29,669 bases of DNA, from the IMG/VR virus record IMGVR_UViG_3300035145_000727, positions 1-29,669 of that record. One strand, 5' to 3'. This document shows, piece by piece, positions 7,017 to 28,508 of the stretch. The stretch is from a virus. The position numbers were made by a program, and so were the translations under genes. The stretch's first letter is position 1, and each line of letters opens with the position of its first letter. Below the pieces are notes generated by a model, which worked only from the letters and a program-made list of their open reading frames with translations, did no database searches and was not told the DNA's origin.

Positions 7017-7574
7017 ATGACTAAGAAAAAAGACCCTAAAAAGGCAGAACACTATGTTAATAACAAAGAGTTCACAGAAGCAGTCGCCGAGTATAACGAA
7101 GCAGTAAAACTCGCCGAATCAAAAGGCAAAACGCCACCTAGGATGAACGACTACATAGGAGAGTGCATTTATAAGATTGCAACTCGACTATCTACTCGAC
7201 CTAACTTCATCAACTATACTTATAGAGATGAAATGATATGCGATGCAATTGAGAATTGTATTCAGTATATCGGTAACTTCAATAGAGAAAAGTCAAATAA
7301 CGCTTTCGCTTACATAACACAAATATGCTATTATGCATTTCTGAGAAGAATTCAAAAGGAGAAGAAACAAGTCTTCATAAAACAACAGATTATATCTGAA
7401 TCAGGAATAACAGAAGATAGCTTCACAACGATTGACGGTGACACTAGAGGTATGACTAATACCAATGTTGAATGGATGCAAGACAACATGAATCGTGTCG
7501 AATACGAACCTAGAAAAACTAAGAGAAAAACTACCACGACAAAGAAGAAGAACTTAGAAAACTTTACTGAATGA
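7017..7574 (+). CDS. 55: gp55 late-transcription sigma factor
   Basis: 185 residues, the size of T4 gp55. The family is a minimal sigma factor that directs host RNA polymerase to late boxes (TATAAATA), helped by the sliding clamp gp45. The core region (about 40-120) carries YIGECIYKIATRLSTRPNF, IENCIQYIGNFN and FAYITQICYYAFLRRIQKE, matching the sigma region-2-like part of gp55 proteins. The tail (about 155-185) is basic and Thr/Lys-rich. There is no ribosome site, and the promoter box lies directly upstream, so the message may be leaderless. It overlaps gp47 by 4 bases. Confidence 0.93.
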   Translation: MTKKKDPKKAEHYVNNKEFTEAVAEYNEAVKLAESKGKTPPRMNDYIGECIYKIATRLSTRPNFINYTYRDEMICDAIENCIQYIGNFNREKSNNAFAYITQICYYAFLRRIQKEKKQVFIKQQIISESGITEDSFTTIDGDTRGMTNTNVEWMQDNMNRVEYEPRKTKRKTTTTKKKNLENFTE

Positions 7575-8638
7575 AAATAGCAATCTTAAATGACACTCAC
7601 GCCGGTGTTAGAGGCGATATGGTGGAGATGGCAAAATATCAAGGTCGTTTTTACGAAGAGATATTTTTTCCATACTTAGAAGAACACGATATTAAACACA
7701 TCATACATTTGGGTGATTACTTTGATAGAAGAAAGTATGTAAACTTCTCTTCACTAAAATATAATAGAGAACACTTTATCGAACCAATGATAGAGAAAGG
7801 CATTACTATGGATTTGATTCTTGGTAATCATGATGTCTATTATAAGAATACAAACGAAGTAAATGCACCTGAGTTATTACTATTCAATGAGGCGAACATC
7901 AATGTTATTGATGAACCGATTGTCAAAGAATACGATGGCGTAAATCTAGCACTTGTACCTTGGATTAATAATGAGAACTATGCTGATAGTATAGACTTCT
8001 TGTTAAGCGCTAATGCAGATACCTGTATGGGTCACTTTGAAATCGAGGGCGCCTTGATGATGCCAGGTATGACATGTCAACATGGACTAGACCATACATA
8101 TTTAAAACGATTCGACAAAGTATACAGTGGTCACTTCCATCAGAAATCAGAAGTAAAGAATATCAGATATCTTGGTTCACAAATGCAGTTCACTTGGTCA
8201 GACTATGGTGATGAGAAATACTTTCATATCTTTGATACTGATACAAGAGAGATGTCACCGATACACAATCCACTAACAATGTTTGAAAAGTTATTCTATG
8301 ATGATGCAAAAGAAACTTTTGAAACATTATCAAACAAAGATTACACAAAATACACAAATAAATTTACAAAAGTAATAGTAGTAAACAAAGACAATCCTTA
8401 TTGGTTTGATACTGTTATTGATAAACTACATGAGGCAAATCCTTTACATGTATCAGTTGTCGATGACCATAAACATATGGACTTGATGGATGACGATGAT
8501 ATAGAAGGAGTTGAAGATACTTTAACTATACTAGAAAAGTATATCGATGGTTTAGAAATACAAGGTCAGAAAAAACCACTATTCGAACTAATGACTTCAC
8601 TGTATAATGAAGCGTTAGAAGAACACAACTATCTATGA
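7571..8638 (+). CDS. 47: gp47 recombination nuclease subunit (Mre11-like)
   Basis: 355 residues, a calcineurin-type metallophosphoesterase. With gp46 it forms the T4-type Mre11/Rad50 complex that resects DNA ends for recombination-dependent replication. Metal ligands are visible: D8 and H10 (NDTH), D49 (LGDYFDRR), N86-H87 (GNHDVY), H155, and H188/H190 (GHFH). The C-terminal ~120 residues are the capping and gp46-binding part. It overlaps gp55 and gp46 by 4 bases each (ATGA). Confidence 0.96.
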   Translation: MKIAILNDTHAGVRGDMVEMAKYQGRFYEEIFFPYLEEHDIKHIIHLGDYFDRRKYVNFSSLKYNREHFIEPMIEKGITMDLILGNHDVYYKNTNEVNAPELLLFNEANINVIDEPIVKEYDGVNLALVPWINNENYADSIDFLLSANADTCMGHFEIEGALMMPGMTCQHGLDHTYLKRFDKVYSGHFHQKSEVKNIRYLGSQMQFTWSDYGDEKYFHIFDTDTREMSPIHNPLTMFEKLFYDDAKETFETLSNKDYTKYTNKFTKVIVVNKDNPYWFDTVIDKLHEANPLHVSVVDDHKHMDLMDDDDIEGVEDTLTILEKYIDGLEIQGQKKPLFELMTSLYNEALEEHNYL

Positions 8639-14290: not shown

Positions 14291-14535
14291 TGGCAATAAG
14301 AATGGAAATGATTGAAACTTTGAATGTAGATAAGTTCCAAGAGGCGATTCAACAAATCGGTGAAGGTCCTTGTACGAAGTTCAATTGTGATAGACAGGCA
14401 CTTTGTGCCGAAGAGCAAGTTGAATGTAAAGCATTCAGATATTGGGTTAACAATGATTCTTACACAACGATGAGAAAAGGTAAGAAGACGAGTATCAAGA
14501 TTGATATTCAAAGATTATTAAAGGAGATTGAGTAA
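14290..14535 (+). CDS. Small four-cysteine protein of unknown function
   Basis: 81 residues after an AAGGAG ribosome site; start and stop overlap both neighbours by 1 base. Four cysteines at about 28, 33, 40 and 47 (CTKFNC, then LC, then EC) are spaced as in small zinc or iron-sulphur sites. The tail is basic. Co-transcribed with the VWA protein and the 581-residue unknown, so it may be an accessory factor of the AAA+/VWA system. No family recognised. Confidence 0.75.
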   Translation: MAIRMEMIETLNVDKFQEAIQQIGEGPCTKFNCDRQALCAEEQVECKAFRYWVNNDSYTTMRKGKKTSIKIDIQRLLKEIE

Positions 14536-16280
14536 TGACTTTTAAAGAACATGTAGAAGAGAACTTTGCAAAACTAGAAGCAGTCAAGCAGGCGAATACA
14601 CCTGACTTGATGAATGGCGCTTCAATAAGATTCGGTGAATTATCTGAACTCTATACCAATCAAGATGCACCAGTTAGTTCAAAGGAACAAATTAAGAATA
14701 GTTATTCAAATAGACCTGTGATGTTATCAGAGGCAAAACCAAAGCAACAAAAGTTAGATAGAAAACTTGTTTATGCAATTCAGTTTTATTCTGGCGTATC
14801 ATCTATGAATTATTTGCCAATGGGTATTCTTCCAGATACTAATTGCTTGCAGTTAGAAGACAGAGGTCACTTTACAGGTTTGTTAATTGAGAGAGCTAAC
14901 CACGAGTGGAAAGTTGCAACATGGAAGAGAGTTTTAAAAAGACTCGAAGCATTAGATTACAATCCAATGATTAATGAATACATTGAGAGAATTCAACACA
15001 GGATTGATTATAGGTCCAAGAAGTTTTCTTTAGATAGTCTGAATACACCAGAAGACAAAAAGAGAATTAATGATTACATGATACCTTATGAGTTGAAAGT
15101 TTATCCTAATAGAGATATGCATGACAATGAAATAACAGGTATCAATAGTTTAGATGATAAGTGGACTACACACCAACTCGCCATGAAGGCAGTTGAAAAG
15201 AACACCAGAACGATTCATGGTGTCAATAACACTATCATCAAGGATAGATACGAACTTGTTAGAGATAATGATTTATTTTTAGGTAATAATAAATTCTCAA
15301 TGACAGGTAATGCCAAACAGGCAAGTAAGATGGAGAACCATGAAGAGGAACCAATGATGATTTTCGCAGGTGCTCTTGCTACTTCAAAGACTATGCATGA
15401 GATGTATAATGCTTTGGGTACTTCATCAGAAGATAAGAGAACAACGATGTATGAGAAAGCAATCGAACAATTCCAAACTTTAGAAGATTGGAAAGTTCTT
15501 GTTAAAAATGTCGAAACTGTTTTGATTAATGATGTTTATATGTCGATGCTTCAAAAGACTATCGATAAAACTTTCGATACAATTGAGAAGCAGAATATGA
15601 CTGGAACTAATGTCAAAGACTTGACACCTAGAAAAGTAGATGCTTCATTAATGATAGTATACACTGCTTTGAAATTATCAGAGGCAAGAAAGTTAAGACC
15701 GACTGAAAAGAATCTAAGAAGATGTGCTGAAGTTGTAATCAAGACAATGGAAAGTATGATTAAAGATACTGAAAAAATGAAAGAACTTTGTATGATGAGT
15801 TCAACTGCAAAGACCAGAGCATTGAATTTCTTTCAACCATTATTAGAAACCTGTATTCAGAACTCAGATGAAAATCAAGATGATAGTAAAGACCTTTTGA
15901 TTAGAACATCTTTAGAGATAGTCGAACAAGACGAAATACAAATTGTCACCGATAGACCAATCACAATATTAGATAGAGAAGAAAATGATAGAGATGGTTT
16001 CAGATTCGTTGAAGTTGTCATTGATGAAGGTAAGGGATTACACCTTGGTCACTGTAAGTCAGGTGATGATAGTGGTGGGTTCTTCTTACAACCTGCTGGT
16101 GACAATATCTTTTGGGACAATAAGAGAGATTTCGTTCCAAGTGAATATGCAGATGAGTATATGAGTGAAGTCGCTACCTATCTTGCAGGTGTTAGTTCAA
16201 CCTGGTTCTCAGATTCCAAGATGTTGCAGGCATATAATAATACTCAGAATTTAACAAATATTTGGAAACATGGTGGTTGA
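14535..16280 (+). CDS. Large protein of unknown function, AAA+/VWA operon
   Basis: 581 residues, preceded by AAAGGAGATT like its upstream neighbour. Mostly helical and charged, without signal peptide or membrane span. A C-terminal segment (about 490-530) rich in Gly, Asp and His (GLHLGHCKSGDDSGGFFLQP) looks like a separate compact domain. I do not recognise it; I recall large unnamed genes in similar positions in cyanophages. It lies between the VWA protein and the AAA+ ATPase, so it is a candidate third component or substrate adaptor. Its stop codon overlaps the next promoter. Confidence 0.8.
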   Translation: MTFKEHVEENFAKLEAVKQANTPDLMNGASIRFGELSELYTNQDAPVSSKEQIKNSYSNRPVMLSEAKPKQQKLDRKLVYAIQFYSGVSSMNYLPMGILPDTNCLQLEDRGHFTGLLIERANHEWKVATWKRVLKRLEALDYNPMINEYIERIQHRIDYRSKKFSLDSLNTPEDKKRINDYMIPYELKVYPNRDMHDNEITGINSLDDKWTTHQLAMKAVEKNTRTIHGVNNTIIKDRYELVRDNDLFLGNNKFSMTGNAKQASKMENHEEEPMMIFAGALATSKTMHEMYNALGTSSEDKRTTMYEKAIEQFQTLEDWKVLVKNVETVLINDVYMSMLQKTIDKTFDTIEKQNMTGTNVKDLTPRKVDASLMIVYTALKLSEARKLRPTEKNLRRCAEVVIKTMESMIKDTEKMKELCMMSSTAKTRALNFFQPLLETCIQNSDENQDDSKDLLIRTSLEIVEQDEIQIVTDRPITILDREENDRDGFRFVEVVIDEGKGLHLGHCKSGDDSGGFFLQPAGDNIFWDNKRDFVPSEYADEYMSEVATYLAGVSSTWFSDSKMLQAYNNTQNLTNIWKHGG

Positions 16281-21562: not shown

Positions 21563-21570
21563 CATAAATA
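21563..21570 (+). promoter_or_regulatory. Probable late promoter of the curli-like operon
   Basis: A CATAAATA box 7 bases before the ATG at 21578 and 22 bases after the terminator. It is the only promoter candidate I see before the csgF/csgG genes. The predicted message starts about 2 bases before the ATG, and there is no ribosome site. Confidence 0.6.
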
Positions 21571-21577
21571 ATCGTGT

Positions 21578-21874
21578 ATGGAAGATTTGTTATTGTTAGT
21601 TGAAGAAGTCGGTATCCCAATTGCAGGTGCAATTGTGATGGCTTTCTTTATCTTCCTTACCTTGAAATACATCTTAGAAGGTGTAGCAGATGATGTGGAC
21701 ACGCTTACAGGTATGTCTTCGATGTTAGAAGATAGATGTAGAGCGATGAACAACGAAATCATTAAAATTGACTTACTAATATCTCAAGCATTAGAACTTG
21801 CACCAGATTTAGAACGAGTCGCAAGAGCAGAAAATTTTATCGAAGATGGTGGAATTGATGCTAGACGAGATTAA
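21578..21874 (+). CDS. Small membrane protein, holin/UviB-like layout (98 aa, copy A)
   Basis: 98 residues: short acidic N-terminus, a VGIPIAGAIVMAFFIFLTLK membrane span (about 11-30), then a soluble, partly coiled-coil C-terminal part. Length, span position and composition match the next gene, suggesting an old duplication. The layout (one span after a G-I/F-P motif, then a charged helix) resembles BhlA/UviB-type bacteriocin and holin-like proteins, but this is not proof of pore formation. First gene of the presumed curli-like operon. Confidence 0.75.
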   Translation: MEDLLLLVEEVGIPIAGAIVMAFFIFLTLKYILEGVADDVDTLTGMSSMLEDRCRAMNNEIIKIDLLISQALELAPDLERVARAENFIEDGGIDARRD

Positions 21875-21876
21875 TC

Positions 21877-22173
21877 ATGGAAGAAGTATCAATAGTCCAG
21901 GAGATTGTCAATGTAGTTAATGATTTTGGATTCCCTTTTGTTATGAGTTTAGGAATGGGGTACTTCATATATTTCATATGGAAGTATGTCACGGAAGAGC
22001 TTGAACCGAAAATAGACAAGCAAAGAGTCGCATTAATTAAACTTATCGACCAGATGAGAATGTTAGACCAAGACCAAATACGATTACAACAAAAACTGAA
22101 TACAGTTTTAGAATATCGTAAAGCAGAACGATTGAGGAGTCAGAATGTTAAAAAGAGGAATACTAAGTCTTAG
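21877..22173 (+). CDS. Small membrane protein, holin/UviB-like layout (98 aa, copy B)
   Basis: 98 residues, starting 2 bases after copy A. It has an FGFPFVMSLGMGYFIYFIWK span (about 17-36), followed by a charged coiled coil (about 45-85) with heptad Leu/Ile/Met, and a basic tail (KAERLRSQNVKKRNTKS). The GFP/GIP motif at the span start and the equal length link it to copy A. It overlaps csgF by 29 bases. The two may form a hetero-oligomer in the inner membrane, perhaps serving lysis or the secretion genes downstream. Confidence 0.75.
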   Translation: MEEVSIVQEIVNVVNDFGFPFVMSLGMGYFIYFIWKYVTEELEPKIDKQRVALIKLIDQMRMLDQDQIRLQQKLNTVLEYRKAERLRSQNVKKRNTKS

Positions 22174-22642
22174 TCTATTGATTGCATTACCAAGTAATGC
22201 TGATATAGTTCATAAATTTAAAAATCCAAGTTTCAGTGGAGTGGGTACAGGTGCTCATTATCTTACCATTGAAAACCAAGAACACTCTCGTAAGAAGGCA
22301 ATTGAAGACGCCTTAGAAGCAGCTCGTAAAGCGGCAGAGAGAGAAGCAGACAATACAGTTCTTGCCAAATTCATCAGGAACTTAGAGAGCAGAATCTATG
22401 CTCAGTTCGCAAAACAATTAGTAGAATCAATGTTCTCAAATGACAATCCAGGTTCATTTGGGTCATTCATGTTAGAAGGTAATAGTGTGACATGGGAAGT
22501 GATTACACTTGACGATGGTTCAGATGTTATCAGACTAACAGTTGTCAGCGAAGATGGAACAGAAACAGTTATAGAAATACCAGTTGGTACAGGCAACTTC
22601 GGTCAAGACCCCGATACAGGCGGTGGTGACGGCGATGGCTAA
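22145..22642 (+). CDS. csgF: CsgF-like curli secretion accessory protein
   Basis: 165 residues with a GAGGAG ribosome site. Signal peptide 1-19 (ending SNA). The mature N-terminus DIVHKFKNPSFSG carries the F-x-N-P-x-F motif with which CsgF plugs into the CsgG channel and forms its second constriction. A charged Ala/Arg/Glu helix (about 49-90), longer than in E. coli, follows. The C-terminal strands (TWEVITLDDGSDVIRLTVVS, then TETVIEIPVG) match the CsgF pattern of repeated polar/hydrophobic strands. It ends in an extra acidic Gly tail. It overlaps csgG by 8 bases, so the two are coupled. Acts at the outer membrane. Confidence 0.85.
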   Translation: MLKRGILSLSLLIALPSNADIVHKFKNPSFSGVGTGAHYLTIENQEHSRKKAIEDALEAARKAAEREADNTVLAKFIRNLESRIYAQFAKQLVESMFSNDNPGSFGSFMLEGNSVTWEVITLDDGSDVIRLTVVSEDGTETVIEIPVGTGNFGQDPDTGGGDGDG

Positions 22643-23549
22643 GTATCTACTTGCAATAGTTCTTTTATTACAAGGTTGTGCATCAGTACCTAGATGGTCT
22701 GATAATCCACAAGATTGTAATCCAGATATGTGGGGTGAAGAATACAACCACGATTTGTGGAACTATGCTAAAGCAGGTGGCAGAGTTTTTGAAAAAGCAA
22801 TGCCATATATTTGTGTAGAAGGTCCAGAAGTAGTTAAACTTCCTTCATACATCGAACTTATGAAATTGCCACCCGCTGAAGAAAAACCTGTAGTTGCAGT
22901 TTATAATTTTATAGACAAAACAGGTCAAAGAAAAAATAGAGAAGGTATTGCAGACTTCTCAACAGCAGTCACCCAAGGTGGTGTCGAAATGGTTATCGAT
23001 GCATTGAAGACTGCTGGTGACGGAACATGGTTCAGAGTAGTTGAACGAAATGGTATAGACGCCCTAGTTAGAGAAAGGCAAATCATTCGTTCTGCTAGAA
23101 CAGATTACGCAAAGGCAACTAACACTGAAGCAAAAGGTGTTCAACCTTTGCTATTCGCCGGAATGATTATTGAAGGCGGAATAATAGGTTACGATTCCAA
23201 TATTAAAACAGGTGGTCGAGGCGCTAGAACACTTGGGATTGGATTCGCAAGACGATATCAGCAAGATGTCGTCACAATCTCCATGAGAGCAGTTAGTGTT
23301 CTCACAGGAGAAGTTTTGTTAAATGTCCAAACTCGAAAAACTATTTTGAGTTATGGTTCTGGAGGCGATGTATTTAAGTTCATCGAACAAGGAACTCAAC
23401 TCGTAGAAATTGAGGACGGAGTGGGTAATAATGAGTCAGTGACATACGCAACACGAACAGCGATAGAAGCTGCCGTGTTGGAATTAATATACCAGGGACA
23501 CGATAGAGGTTTCTGGAAAATAGAGGGGTATAACGAAAATGAAAAATAA
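22635..23549 (+). CDS. csgG: CsgG-like outer-membrane secretion pore lipoprotein
   Basis: 304 residues from the ATG at 22635; the longer in-frame start at 22584 is rejected because the lipoprotein signal starts here. Lipobox LLQGC with Cys15. About 38 extra residues with two cysteines (28, 60) precede the CsgG domain. Family landmarks: VAVYNFIDKTGQ (87-98), DFSTAV (107-112), VERNGIDALVRERQIIR (136-152), EGGIIGYDSNIKTGGRGAR (180-198), LTGEVLLNVQTRKTILSY (223-240), and GHDRGFW (288-294). In E. coli this protein forms a nonameric 36-strand pore for curli subunits. Likely role: export of the curlin-like proteins encoded downstream. The CsgE plug and CsgC are not visible. The pore constriction loop differs from E. 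coli (see findings). Confidence 0.95.
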   Translation: MAKYLLAIVLLLQGCASVPRWSDNPQDCNPDMWGEEYNHDLWNYAKAGGRVFEKAMPYICVEGPEVVKLPSYIELMKLPPAEEKPVVAVYNFIDKTGQRKNREGIADFSTAVTQGGVEMVIDALKTAGDGTWFRVVERNGIDALVRERQIIRSARTDYAKATNTEAKGVQPLLFAGMIIEGGIIGYDSNIKTGGRGARTLGIGFARRYQQDVVTISMRAVSVLTGEVLLNVQTRKTILSYGSGGDVFKFIEQGTQLVEIEDGVGNNESVTYATRTAIEAAVLELIYQGHDRGFWKIEGYNENEK

Positions 23550-24288
23550 ACTATTAGCGATTTCGCTTGTAGCTATATTGTCGACAAATTTCCTTTTCGC
23601 ACAAGCCACTGATGATAACGAAGTAAAAATCACCCAAGTTGGTGATACATTGAAACTTTATATTGACCAAGTAGGTTTTGGAAACAAAATAGGAGGAAAT
23701 GATTTCTCATCTTCTTCAACTGCTATGACAATAACTGGTTCTACACTTGAATTAGATTTAGATTTCAACGGAAATCAGAACATCTTGTTCGGTCCTTTAG
23801 AAGCAGATAGTTCTTACTACAAGTTCAATGTGACAGGCGACTCTAACGAGTTTGATTGGGACATTGGTTCAACTGGTTCATCAGATAGTTCTAACATTAA
23901 CTTTGCTATAACAGGAAGTTCAAACACTTTTGATATAGACCAAGGTAAAGTTGGAGCAAGTGCAGAAAGATTAGACGCCGATTTAGTTTTACAATCAGGT
24001 TCGACTAGCAATGTCTTTGACATTGATTGGGAATCAGATGACATTGTTTGGAACCTAGACATCGATGGTTCATCAAACAACATCAACACTTTACAAAATG
24101 ATGGTGCTAACTCTTTGACTTTTACATTAGACGGTTCATCTGCTGATGTAGATATCAATCAGATTTCAGGTACATGTGCTGTTTCAGGCAATGGATGTGC
24201 TACACCAAATGCTATCATAACACTTGATGTTGATTCAGAAAATGCTATCATTCAAATCAATCAAAAAGATTCATCTAGCGATTCTTAA
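23539..24288 (+). CDS. Secreted curlin-like repeat protein A
   Basis: 249 residues. Signal peptide to about residue 21-23 (FLFAQA). The start of the mature chain, VKITQVGDTLKLYIDQVGFGN, is shared with protein B at 25548. Then come about seven degenerate units built as strand - (G/D)xSNxx - strand ending in Asp or Gln, for example FNVTGDSNEFDWDIG, FAITGSSNTFDIDQG and LDIDGSSNNINTLQN. This resembles the stacked strand-turn-strand units of curlins (Q-x-G-x-x-N...Q), but is more acidic and Ser/Asp-rich. Placement directly after csgG supports a secreted amyloid-like or beta-solenoid fibre subunit. A tail-fibre-like beta helix is an alternative, but a Sec signal argues against a virion part. Overlaps csgG by 11 bases. 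Confidence 0.78.
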   Translation: MKNKLLAISLVAILSTNFLFAQATDDNEVKITQVGDTLKLYIDQVGFGNKIGGNDFSSSSTAMTITGSTLELDLDFNGNQNILFGPLEADSSYYKFNVTGDSNEFDWDIGSTGSSDSSNINFAITGSSNTFDIDQGKVGASAERLDADLVLQSGSTSNVFDIDWESDDIVWNLDIDGSSNNINTLQNDGANSLTFTLDGSSADVDINQISGTCAVSGNGCATPNAIITLDVDSENAIIQINQKDSSSDS

Positions 24289-25390
24289 TACTTTGTTAAT
24301 CAGTGGGGTTGCATTCGCCAACCCCATTGGTGATATCCGAGAATCAAGCGGTTCAGGATTCCTTACCCGAAATTCAGAAAAAATTACAAACGAAGTAGGA
24401 AAAGATATCTTACTTAAAGACGAAGCGAAAACAGAAAGCGGTAGAATGAAAATCGTTTTCTTAGATGATGAAGTTCTCGACATGACTGAGAACACATATG
24501 CTTATATTGACGAAGCATACTACGACCCCAATCCAGATTTATCTCGTATGTCAATACGAATGGTTCAAGGCACTGCAAGATTCACATCTGGTAAAGGTGG
24601 CAAGATAAAGAAAAAGAATGTCAAAGTGTCAACACCTACGGCACAAATATCAATTAAAGGAACAGATTTCACAACAACCATCGATGAGTTAGGAAGGTCA
24701 CTCGTCATATTATTACCAGATGAGTTTGGTGATTCATCAGGAGAAATAGAAGTGACTAACGATGGTGGAACAATAACGCTTACTGAAGCGTATCAGGCGA
24801 CTATGGTGTCATCATACGATTCGCCACCTACTAAATCAGTCATCATAAACAACATAACAACTTCAATGATTGACAACATGTTCATTGTTAATCCACCTAA
24901 CGAAGTCAGACAAGCAATAGAAGAACAAGCACAAGATGACATGTATGATGACCAAGGTATCTTAGATGTAGATTTCTTAGAGTTCAATGAACTAGAAGGT
25001 GATGCTCTCGCAGATACAGAAGAAGACTTAGAGTTTTCTGAATTAGATATAGATTTATTAGATGTCGACTTTCTCGTAGACTTATTAGATGTCGTAGAAG
25101 AGTTAGAAAAAACTACAGTTAAACTTGCAGATGTTCAAGCATCAGCAGGAGGTGTGGGTGATGTCAATCTTAGAGGTGCAACATTAGGATTGAATAAAGA
25201 TTCACAATATAATATCTTTGTGCAAGACGGAGACTTATACTTCTATCGTAATGTGAATGGTGTCATAGAAATAATTGTCGCCGCTGGTGGTGCAGGTATA
25301 TTAGAAACAAATGTCGATGGTTATCAAGGTGTCATAGAATTTGGAAATGGCGACCCTTCAATCGAGATTATAATCAATCAATCTAACTAA
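24242..25390 (+). CDS. Secreted FecR-domain protein
   Basis: 382 residues from the ATG at 24242, chosen because it gives a compact signal peptide (1-26, ending VAFA before NP); an upstream ATG at 24227 is possible. FecR domain at about 30-150, with the signature VSTPTAQISIKGTDFTTTID. A long acidic stretch with repeated DVDFL/DIDLL units follows (about 230-280). The C-terminal region ends in a strand (SIEIIINQSN) like the curlin-like proteins. Classical FecR is a membrane anti-sigma regulator; this one has no membrane span and should be periplasmic or exported. Secreted FecR proteins often neighbour CHASE2 cyclases in bacteria, as here. It overlaps protein A by 47 bases. Confidence 0.85.
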   Translation: MLSFKSIKKIHLAILNTLLISGVAFANPIGDIRESSGSGFLTRNSEKITNEVGKDILLKDEAKTESGRMKIVFLDDEVLDMTENTYAYIDEAYYDPNPDLSRMSIRMVQGTARFTSGKGGKIKKKNVKVSTPTAQISIKGTDFTTTIDELGRSLVILLPDEFGDSSGEIEVTNDGGTITLTEAYQATMVSSYDSPPTKSVIINNITTSMIDNMFIVNPPNEVRQAIEEQAQDDMYDDQGILDVDFLEFNELEGDALADTEEDLEFSELDIDLLDVDFLVDLLDVVEELEKTTVKLADVQASAGGVGDVNLRGATLGLNKDSQYNIFVQDGDLYFYRNVNGVIEIIVAAGGAGILETNVDGYQGVIEFGNGDPSIEIIINQSN

Positions 25391-25413
25391 ATAAGAGACC
25401 AGGAGGAAATTCT

Positions 25414-25560
25414 ATGGATAAGATAAATTACTTATTAGAATGGCATGAAGACTTGGTATATAAATGGATAGAGCGATTACAAGTGTCAGAATATCAGGCA
25501 ATGTGGTTCGCTTTTATTAAAGGTGTAATAGTCACATTACTTTTACAATGGATATTTTAA
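25414..25560 (+). CDS. Small membrane protein (48 aa)
   Basis: 48 codons after a perfect AGGAGG ribosome site (7 bases before ATG). Charged, Trp-containing N-terminal half (INYLLEWHEDLVYKWIERL) and a hydrophobic C-terminal span (about 31-48, MWFAFIKGVIVTLLLQWIF). It overlaps the next gene by 13 bases. A CTAAATA box at 25387-25393, across the FecR stop codon, could be a weak late promoter. Unknown function; the strong ribosome site suggests high expression. Confidence 0.7.
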   Translation: MDKINYLLEWHEDLVYKWIERLQVSEYQAMWFAFIKGVIVTLLLQWIF

Positions 25561-26351
25561 AAAAATTAACAGTAATCTTTGGGGTGTTAATCACCCCAAT
25601 GATTTCTTTTGCCGATGACAATCATGTTCATGTAGAACAAGTCAACGGTGGTGATAACTTAGAATTACAAATAGACCAGATTGGTTTTAACAACTTGGTT
25701 CGATTTTCAACAGACCATCAAAACAATACAATAGAACTTTTACAACAAGGTAATAACATGTATTTCGGTTATACTGATGCATGGGGTTCAGGTTATAATT
25801 GGGGTGGCGACTTAGACGGATATAATAACGATGTCTTAGTCAAGCAGAAATGTTCTGCTTCAAGTTGTAATGAAAACGACTTTCAGTTTCACATATGGGG
25901 CAACTATAATGAGGTTGTCTTTGGTCAAGGTTTCGAAATAAACAACTCACTTACACCTACTTGGAGTTATGACGGAACGGAGCCTGGTGGAAACTTTGTT
26001 CGACTAGACATTCACGGTGATTACAATGACTTCAAAGGAAGTCAGAAACAAGATTCAGATACTATTGAACATAGTATGACTTGGAACATCTACGGTGATT
26101 ACAATAATGTCTTCTCAAAACAATTACAAAATGGTGATAAGACACTTACAGGAACAATCAATAACGATTACAATACAGTATCAACAATTCAGAAAAAAAC
26201 TGGTGCCCATACTGCAACGATTACATTAGATGGCACCTACGGAACAAATCTCACCTTAGTTCAAACAGGCACAACAGCACAATCATATACACTAACCCAA
26301 ACTTGTAATACAGTTGGGGGTTGTACAGTATCAGTAACCCAAGGTAATTAA
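25548..26351 (+). CDS. Secreted curlin-like repeat protein B
   Basis: 267 residues. Signal peptide to about residue 22 (ISFA). The mature start, VHVEQVNGGDNLELQIDQIG, parallels protein A (QV..D.L.L.IDQ.GF.N). About eight imperfect repeats follow, with Gln, Gly and Asn at curlin-like spacing: QIDQIGFNN, LLQQGNN, IWGNYNEVVFGQGF, IHGDYNDFKGSQKQ, IYGDYNNVFSKQ, INNDYNTVSTIQKK, LTLVQTGT, and a final VSVTQGN. Two Cys pairs (about residues 102/107 and 254/260) could cross-link. More Tyr/Asn/Gln-rich and closer to CsgA/CsgB than protein A. Likely a surface fibre subunit exported by the phage CsgG/CsgF pore. Confidence 0.8.
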   Translation: MDILKKLTVIFGVLITPMISFADDNHVHVEQVNGGDNLELQIDQIGFNNLVRFSTDHQNNTIELLQQGNNMYFGYTDAWGSGYNWGGDLDGYNNDVLVKQKCSASSCNENDFQFHIWGNYNEVVFGQGFEINNSLTPTWSYDGTEPGGNFVRLDIHGDYNDFKGSQKQDSDTIEHSMTWNIYGDYNNVFSKQLQNGDKTLTGTINNDYNTVSTIQKKTGAHTATITLDGTYGTNLTLVQTGTTAQSYTLTQTCNTVGGCTVSVTQGN

Positions 26352-28201
26352 TGTATAATTGGAAAATGGTTCTAGGGACTATTGGTCTCCTAGTTGGATT
26401 GAAAGTTTGGAATCCTTACTTCATAGAAAACATATCATGGTCATGGTTTGATTTTCTACATCAACAAAAAGAAGAAGTCTTAGTAGACAACATAGTTCTA
26501 GTTGACATAGATGAGAAGTCACTAGAGAAACACGGTCAGTTTCCTTTCCCTAGAAATGTATACGCAGATGTATTATGGGAAACAGACCCAACAAACACTC
26601 ACATCTTTACAATGGTGTTTAGTGAACCTGATAGATTCGGTGGAGATGATGAGTTCGCTGAAGCATTAGTCAATCGACTAACAATATTAGGTTCACAACC
26701 TACTACACAAAAACAAACAGGTCAGGCACCTTATGTGCCGACTACAACTTTTGGTGGGGGTGATATTGCTGATAGTATATGGGGTTATCCTGGAATCGCA
26801 ACACCAATTGAGATACTACAGTTGAACACCTATGGTGTCGGAATTACAAGTGCTACGCCATCGATTATGGGAACTGCCAACTTCGATAACACAATTCGTT
26901 CAGCACCTTTATTAGTATCTGCTAATGAACAAATATATCCTTCAATCGCATTAGAGTTTCTCAGAGCATGGACTGACCAACAATCGTATCAGACGAGAGT
27001 TGTACCTGAATTAGGCGTAGAGTGGATTAGAATGGGCAAACAACCTCCCATTTCGACAACTCCAACAAGTGATATTATGATATCTTATTGGAATAAATTT
27101 GACAGAGTTTCCTTTGCAGACTTACCAGAGTCTAATCTTAATAATAAGATTCTTGTTTATGGTCTGACTGCGGAAGGTCTGAATAATCCAATTTCAACCC
27201 CATTGGGTGCAAAGTATCCCCACGAAGTTCAATCCTCAATTCTCCATACCGTCTTGCAAGACATTCGTATACAACAATCCTACTATCTTGAATTGCTCGA
27301 AATTGCTCTTCTTCTGATAGTGCTTCTAGTAATATTGATTGTGGTCTACAATGTATCCACAGCGCTCTCGGCGATAGTGAGTCTAGGAATTGTTGGACTT
27401 CAATTGGGTGGGGGCTACTATGTTTGGACTTCTCAACTCGTTCTTTTCGATACCTTCTGGTCATCAATTAGTTCCTTAATAGTATTTGGACATGCTTCTT
27501 TCAATCAATACTATACAACTTATCAACTCAAAGAACAAATTAAGAAACAGTTCCAGAAATATTTATCTCCTGAGATGGTTGAAGAACTACAGAAAGACCC
27601 TAGTAAACTTAAACTAGGTGGTGAAAGAAAAGAGATGACATTCATGTTCATGGACATATGTGGATTCACCCCTATAAGCGAGGCGTATAAGAACAAAGAT
27701 GACCCCGAAGGTCTAGTAGAACTGATAAACAAGTTCTTAGATGTGCAAACTAAAATTATCATAAATAACCGTGGAACCATAGATAAGTATATGGGCGATT
27801 GTATCATGGCATTTTGGAATGCTCCACTTGATTGTGAAGACCACGCCGACCTTGCAGTGAAATCAGCTCTAGAAGTATTAGAAGCAACTAAAGAATTAAA
27901 TGAAGAATTATCTCCTCTCAATCTGCCTCCTATTAATGTCGGTATCGGCATTAGCACAGGAGAATGTATTGTCGGAAACATGGGGTCAGAAATTAGATTT
28001 GACTATTCCGTCATTGGAGATGCCGTCAACCTTGGCGCTAGACTCGAAGGTCAAACAAGGAATTATGAGGGGGTGGACTTGTTGTTATCGGAACGAACTT
28101 ATCAATGCTGTCCATCAAGAGCATTTGCAGAAGTCGACAGAATCCTTGTTAAGGGTAAATCCGAAAAGGTACGAATATACACACCGCTGGGAACTGATTG
28201 A
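26351..28201 (+). CDS. CHASE2-domain class III nucleotide cyclase
   Basis: 616 residues. N-terminal membrane anchor (about 5-20), periplasmic CHASE2 sensor domain (about 25-305), three membrane spans (about 313-335, 338-359, 362-382), a linker helix, and a class III cyclase domain (about 425-612). Catalytic residues are complete: metal Asp435 (FMDICGFT) and Asp483 (YMGDCIMAF), Lys479 for adenine recognition, Asn560 and Arg564 (NLGAR) for the transition state. The second specificity position is Ser553 (DYSVIGD), like the Thr-type class IIIb enzymes, so cAMP is the likely product. CHASE2 senses an unknown envelope signal. Starts 1 base inside the end of protein B. Its 3' end overlaps the next frame. 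Confidence 0.93.
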   Translation: MYNWKMVLGTIGLLVGLKVWNPYFIENISWSWFDFLHQQKEEVLVDNIVLVDIDEKSLEKHGQFPFPRNVYADVLWETDPTNTHIFTMVFSEPDRFGGDDEFAEALVNRLTILGSQPTTQKQTGQAPYVPTTTFGGGDIADSIWGYPGIATPIEILQLNTYGVGITSATPSIMGTANFDNTIRSAPLLVSANEQIYPSIALEFLRAWTDQQSYQTRVVPELGVEWIRMGKQPPISTTPTSDIMISYWNKFDRVSFADLPESNLNNKILVYGLTAEGLNNPISTPLGAKYPHEVQSSILHTVLQDIRIQQSYYLELLEIALLLIVLLVILIVVYNVSTALSAIVSLGIVGLQLGGGYYVWTSQLVLFDTFWSSISSLIVFGHASFNQYYTTYQLKEQIKKQFQKYLSPEMVEELQKDPSKLKLGGERKEMTFMFMDICGFTPISEAYKNKDDPEGLVELINKFLDVQTKIIINNRGTIDKYMGDCIMAFWNAPLDCEDHADLAVKSALEVLEATKELNEELSPLNLPPINVGIGISTGECIVGNMGSEIRFDYSVIGDAVNLGARLEGQTRNYEGVDLLLSERTYQCCPSRAFAEVDRILVKGKSEKVRIYTPLGTD

Positions 28202-28508
28202 CCCACCTGAACCTATAGATTGGACATTATTTGTCCTCTTACAGATTGCTGATGTATATACAACTTATCGTGGTCTTCAATATGATTGTGTTGAAGAAGC
28301 AAACCCATTGTTCGGTAGACGACCATCAGTCAGTGATATGGCGCTTACTAAGTTTGCAGTATTGACACCTGCAATTCGATACGATAGAAGACATGGTAAT
28401 CTAAACAAACGAACTATCAGGTCAACAAATGCCTTTATGGCAATTGTTATCGGTAATAATGTAAATGTGACTCACAGAGCAGAAAAGAGGTGTCAAAAAA
28501 TAAAATAA
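27900..28508 (+). CDS. EANPL-motif membrane protein (DUF5658-like), overlapping start
   Basis: The supported part is 28190-28508: IDWTLFVLLQIADVYTTYRG, then EEANPLFGRRPSVSDMALTK, matching small bacterial membrane proteins with a DxxTTxxxL...E(A/T)NPL(L/F)G pattern and unknown function. The start is unclear. The first in-frame ATG at 27900 gives 202 residues beginning with a textbook signal peptide (MKNYLLSICLLLMSVSALAQ), a feature the family usually has, but this means 302 bases of overlap with the cyclase catalytic region. No in-frame ATG exists near the cyclase stop; a TTG near 28156 is the main alternative. The downstream part is solid; the N-terminus is about even odds. Confidence 0.6.
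   Translation: MKNYLLSICLLLMSVSALAQENVLSETWGQKLDLTIPSLEMPSTLALDSKVKQGIMRGWTCCYRNELINAVHQEHLQKSTESLLRVNPKRYEYTHRWELIDPPEPIDWTLFVLLQIADVYTTYRGLQYDCVEEANPLFGRRPSVSDMALTKFAVLTPAIRYDRRHGNLNKRTIRSTNAFMAIVIGNNVNVTHRAEKRCQKIK

Follow-up and report, generated by a model that had tools for sequence, protein, structure and literature searches.

Positions 21563-28508 of IMGVR_UViG_3300035145_000727, a viral DNA stretch of 29,669 nt (the window), contain genes for curli-type secretion followed by the gene of a CHASE2-adenylate cyclase. Taking the evidence as a whole, we consider it highly probable that this is the known curli cassette of pelagiphages in a T4-like marine phage, and that two protein genes are overprinted on its cyclase gene, of which one is read in the +1 frame and the other antisense. 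The cassette itself is already published and is not new: csgF, csgG, csgA/B, fecR, a second csgA/B and an adenylate cyclase were described in podovirus and myovirus pelagiphages (Wittmers 2022, PMC9599517), and HTVC008M and Melnitz carry the cassette in the same order, with much or all of it annotated in their records. A preliminary description of this DNA was therefore mistaken in its belief that the full set was unreported. As for the two overprints, we found them in no paper.

Overlapping reading frames in the cyclase gene

Antisense protein genes in prokaryotes and phages are disputed, and the evidence for selection on them is usually weak. Because the related phages form a deep set with carriers, non-carriers and apparent losses, the antisense gene and its promoter could here be tested by comparison. 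The features concerned are the following.

26351-28201, plus strand: CHASE2-class III adenylate cyclase (Pfam CHASE2 2.2e-29, Guanylate_cyc 7.4e-19)
27900-28508, plus strand: DUF5658 protein with Sec signal peptide (PF18902, 25.4 bits against a gathering cut-off of 25.2, a marginal match)
27138-27464, minus strand: putative antisense overprinted gene, 108 aa, wholly inside the cyclase gene, over the end of CHASE2 and the transmembrane (TM) helices
27473-27477, minus strand: Shine-Dalgarno (SD) sequence AAGGA of the antisense gene (SD in 74 of 74 copies)
27560-27567, minus strand: antisense late-promoter-like box GATAAATA, same site, about 95 nt upstream of the antisense ATG

The preliminary description had placed a last gene ending at 28508. 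That gene is present and is DUF5658, and its boundary is corrected here: it starts inside the codons of the cyclase catalytic domain and overlaps the cyclase gene by 302 nt (27900-28201) in the +1 frame. In all 75 distinct phage cyclases with DUF5658 downstream, the overlap (290-401 nt) is free of stops. At cyclase codons 521-600 of these genes the +1 frame contains no stop, compared with about 480 expected from cyclase-preserving codon shuffles, and the cyclases without a downstream DUF5658 (HTVC008M, Melnitz and the related loci L039 and L070) have 4-9 stops in the same region. The start ATGs of DUF5658 cluster at cyclase codons 511-517, and a signal-peptide-like N-terminus is encoded in 74 of the 75 genes. 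The predicted signal peptide and linker of DUF5658 are encoded, in the +1 frame, by DNA that also specifies the cyclase catalytic domain. L039 has a non-overlapping DUF5658 orthologue with its own signal peptide; it lies ahead of the cyclase (L039:3561-4034) without a long overlap, possibly the ancestral arrangement. In L156 and L157 (about 7553-7890), DUF5658 is truncated shortly past the cyclase stop and the overlapping part is still open; this part may have a role of its own, or the truncation may be recent.

When synonymous variation was scanned over the length of the cyclase gene, it dipped a second time, at codons 265-375; on the minus strand lies an open reading frame (ORF) that the preliminary description had missed. 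In 61 of 82 distinct cyclases (carriers) this ORF, of about 94-112 aa, is uninterrupted and has a conserved ATG and an SD, and GATAAATA is found in 61 of 61 carriers compared with none of 21 non-carriers. Carriers have no stops in the antisense frame where 205 are expected, and non-carriers have 111 where 107 are expected. Similarly, over cyclase codons 264-371 the carriers show 0.61 of the expected synonymous change (permutation mean 0.99, standard deviation 0.045), and the non-carriers 1.05. Third-position divergence drops from 0.54 to 0.29, with positions 1 and 2 remaining close to the average of the gene and falling only from 0.30 and 0.19 to 0.24 and 0.16; because the fall is mostly at codon position 3, it argues against a low-recombination artefact. 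The antisense overlap thus combines an open frame beyond chance, a host gene that changes less at synonymous sites, and a start with SD and promoter signal.

When the set was widened to 174 distinct phage cyclases, the box was present in 44 of 44 carriers and in 2 of 129 cyclases without an open frame. One further cyclase in this set, that of L537, has an open antisense frame with neither box nor motif, and was treated as a chance opening. In trees, a non-carrier clade is nested among carriers, and in it frame and box are both lost. All 76 matches to the antisense protein in viral contigs lie under a cyclase, for 25 of them as judged by match coordinates. In the controls, the same scan of seven other operon genes gave observed stops close to expectation in all five alternative frames and no overlaps, and 80 bacterial CHASE2 cyclases had 299 stops compared with 316 expected in the +1 frame and 342 compared with 370 in the antisense frame. 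We dropped a comparison of antisense similarity with codon shuffles as a test, because non-carriers exceed shuffles too through shared ancestry; a further antisense ORF in frame -2 (27523-27981) was uninformative, because few stops are expected there anyway.

Instead of a protein gene, the antisense signal might reflect a conserved element of RNA or transcription, either an antisense regulatory RNA or structure in the cyclase mRNA. Marine T4-like cyanophages are known to have an antisense RNA, and the conservation does extend to the box and the upstream region of the antisense gene. However, the absence of stops is confined to exactly one of the five alternative frames over about 90 codons, a conserved ATG and SD head that frame in all carriers, and frame-specific stop avoidance is not predicted by RNA structure; we consider this explanation improbable. 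Chance, or a low-divergence stretch caused by recombination, can give dual-frame openness in single genomes, as the unrelated L537 cyclase illustrates, but in our view this has a negligible probability and is already refuted by the stop counts, by the control genes with no such signal and by the fall in divergence at codon position 3 with little at positions 1 and 2. We conclude from these frame-specific patterns that the antisense gene and the overprinted DUF5658 are very likely real genes. If so, annotations of this phage module, which is widespread in marine phages, either lack these two genes or give them wrong boundaries.

Gene content and conservation of the cassette

The rest of the cassette, all on the plus strand, consists of the following features.

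21563-21570, plus strand: late-promoter-like box CATAAATA, ahead of the first gene of the operon
21578-21874, plus strand: small single-TM protein a, 98 aa (phrog_18771, 5e-25)
21877-22173, plus strand: small single-TM protein b, 98 aa, same PHROG family as a (phrog_18771, 2e-26)
22145-22642, plus strand: CsgF (PF10614, 8.9e-12)
22635-23549, plus strand: CsgG outer-membrane lipoprotein pore (PF03783, 6.9e-51; lipobox LLQGC)
23539-24288, plus strand: curlin-like repeat protein 1 with signal peptide, homologous to repeat protein 2
24242-25390, plus strand: secreted FecR-domain protein (PF04773, 4.7e-9), its start overlapping repeat protein 1
25414-25560, plus strand: possible small TM protein, 48 aa, one TM segment (an ORF reading, candidate only)
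25548-26351, plus strand: curlin-like repeat protein 2 with signal peptide; its family profile matches the CsgA structures 8c50 (8.8e-11) and 8enq (1.1e-5)

Every gene named in the preliminary description (CsgF, CsgG, two curlin-like proteins, FecR and the CHASE2-cyclase) was confirmed by Pfam, by profile matches to CsgA structures or by hhalign; the two small TM genes (21578-22173), with which the cassette begins, belong to the set as well. The remaining genes of the window are of T4 type (major head protein, DNA helicase, SbcC/SbcD-like (46/47), sliding clamp and clamp loader); among them lies a 581-aa ORF (14535-16280) without a PHROG match at 1e-3.

Co-occurrence was counted over distinct related viral contigs, at testable loci only. 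In 52 of 52 contigs csgG is preceded by two small TM genes and csgF, the downstream order of repeat protein, fecR, second repeat protein and cyclase is kept in 20 of 20, and csgG and fecR lie upstream of the cyclase in 37 of 37. The genes, which would have told against a functional set had they been scattered and never together, are thus found together in every testable relative, and we conclude that they form a conserved cassette. A 1,499-base record labelled as a Salmonella phage (OR851715.1) holds a csgG-like sequence, 44% identical and of the type seen in marine phages, and is possibly mislabelled or contaminating.

The late box said to precede the operon, CATAAATA, is present, but a single such box is not significant. 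Box counts in the AT-rich window are at chance level (10 found compared with 10.6 expected), so only conservation of position is informative, and 38 of 52 relatives do have ATAAATA 8-17 nt ahead of the first TM gene. In the window the box ends 8 nt from the first ATG (often 8-17 nt in relatives), so that the late mRNA would have little or no leader. The statement that no terminator lies between the genes is not strictly true, because a terminator-like hairpin of 8 pairs (25579-25599) is found inside the signal-peptide codons of curlin-like gene 2, where it might attenuate the distal genes.

The small TM proteins showed no kinase Pfam match in 32 members and no conserved His. From position and copy number, we infer that they are the published 'histidine kinase' upstream of csgF; with neither a kinase-domain match nor a conserved phospho-acceptor His, that reading is not supported for the 98-aa proteins and the label needs revision.

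The two curlin-like families are homologous (hhalign 99.4%, E 3e-21), and single sequences match the Pfam curlin repeat below the curated cut-off (0.0043 and 0.028). An AlphaFold2 model of repeat protein 1 is all-beta, with a mean predicted local distance difference test (pLDDT) score of 77, and gave no significant fold match against the Protein Data Bank (PDB). Both proteins can therefore be placed among secreted curlin-repeat subunits, protein 2 by its match to CsgA structures and protein 1 by homology. At 24242-24288 the stretch coding for the FecR signal peptide overlaps the end of the gene for repeat protein 1; that protein has a strongly conserved C-terminus, IQINQKDSxxDS. The candidate 48-aa ORF between fecR and curlin-like gene 2 has profile matches at nine related loci. 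A Pfam search of the operon ORFs, limited to the operon, gave no match to the CsgE gate.

In the cyclase, D435, K479, D483, R564 and K603 are invariant in 82 of 82 aligned genes and N560 is kept in 81 of 82. The metal-binding Asp pair, the Lys and the Asn/Arg catalytic residues of a class III cyclase are thus intact, and the conserved catalytic Lys suggests ATP as the substrate. Of 80 bacterial CHASE2-cyclase loci, 18 have FecR no more than 2.5 kb from the cyclase, from which it is likely that the FecR-cyclase pair was inherited as a signalling unit.

Possible roles of the cassette and the antisense gene

CsgG and CsgF export curlin subunits, FecR domains are periplasmic, and CHASE2 is an extracytoplasmic sensor domain. 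In the phage, CsgG and CsgF would form an outer-membrane pore that exports the two Sec-secreted curlin-like subunits late in infection; the gene identities, their co-occurrence and the CsgA-structure matches support the curli-type export that the preliminary description had proposed. FecR and the CHASE2-adenylate cyclase would be an envelope-sensing pair taken from bacteria, producing cyclic AMP (cAMP) and so reporting the state of the envelope during subunit export. The antisense unit would fire from the late-type box inside the cyclase gene and make a small protein, and its transcription may oppose the cyclase transcript and thereby limit cAMP production, which is the role we prefer and the least certain step. 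One gene would then give three proteins, namely the cyclase, a secreted DUF5658 protein from the +1 frame and an antisense protein of de novo origin with a late promoter, and the antisense unit would serve the cyclase and curli module as a late switch, acting by its protein, by opposing transcription or by both. We offer this last proposal tentatively and give it rather less than an even chance.

Several observations weigh against the account given here. The antisense protein has no significant match in fold, Pfam, PHROG or PDB searches, and its AlphaFold2 model, of a small helical protein built from 44 homologues, is only moderate (pLDDT 71; core about 80-86). Carrier status switches few times on the tree, so that carriers are not independent samples. 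The antisense gene is also absent from the cultured relatives in which we found the cassette, HTVC008M and Melnitz. Finally, we found no report in the literature of fibre formation by a phage curli cassette. A search of 50,697 phage records gave no match to the antisense protein.

The purposes considered in the preliminary description (clumping, blocking of superinfection, retention of progeny and lysis) had already been proposed (PMC7029224, PMC9004378, PMC9599517), among them 'sibling capture' (Zaragoza-Solas 2020, PMC7029224) and a set of functional proposals close to its own (Wittmers 2022, PMC9599517). The strongest competing explanation is that of Buchholz 2022 (PMC9004378), in which CsgG and CsgF are repurposed as a gated pore that times lysis and do not export fibres. 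Synteny with lysis genes and the lack of clumping in Melnitz were reported in its favour, and the two small TM proteins look holin-like, with weak YvrJ matches in 2 of 32 members. However, the pore always comes with two conserved curlin-like proteins that are secreted, and Melnitz itself has both; its record annotates two curlin-repeat genes, although PMC9004378 states that the fibre genes are missing, a claim that needs revision. We therefore regard a lysis pore as unlikely, if still a serious contender to fibre export. That the repeat proteins are instead virion fibres is very improbable: the model of repeat protein 1 gave matches that were all non-significant (E 0.6 or worse), some of them to tailspikes, but both proteins bear Sec signal peptides, resemble CsgA fibre structures by the family profile of protein 2 and the homology of protein 1, and are always linked to csgG and csgF.

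Comparison with known systems

The pelagiphage type VIII secretion system, or curli, cassette (PMC9599517, PMC7029224, HTVC008M, Melnitz) has the same order as the window, with one or more TM genes followed by csgF, csgG, curlin, fecR, curlin and cyclase. The window adds the overlapping DUF5658 and the antisense gene in the cyclase, whereas HTVC008M and Melnitz have neither overlap, and the published kinase label is unsupported for the TM proteins at that position here. CsgG, CsgF and curlin repeats are also common to the bacterial curli system of the E. coli csg operons; in contrast, the phage operon has no match to CsgE, CsgC or CsgD, and it adds FecR and the CHASE2-cyclase. The pairing of FecR with a CHASE2-cyclase is shared with the bacterial loci counted above, but unlike the phage, the 80 bacterial loci have no csg genes nearby and no overprinted genes. 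Protein genes embedded in an alternative frame are likewise known from antisense pop/ompA in E. coli (PMC7103648) and from same-strand Rz/Rz1. In comparison with these, the cyclase overlaps offer dozens of diverged homologues, a contrast between carriers and non-carriers and a promoter box lost together with the frame, and here two overprints lie within one host gene.

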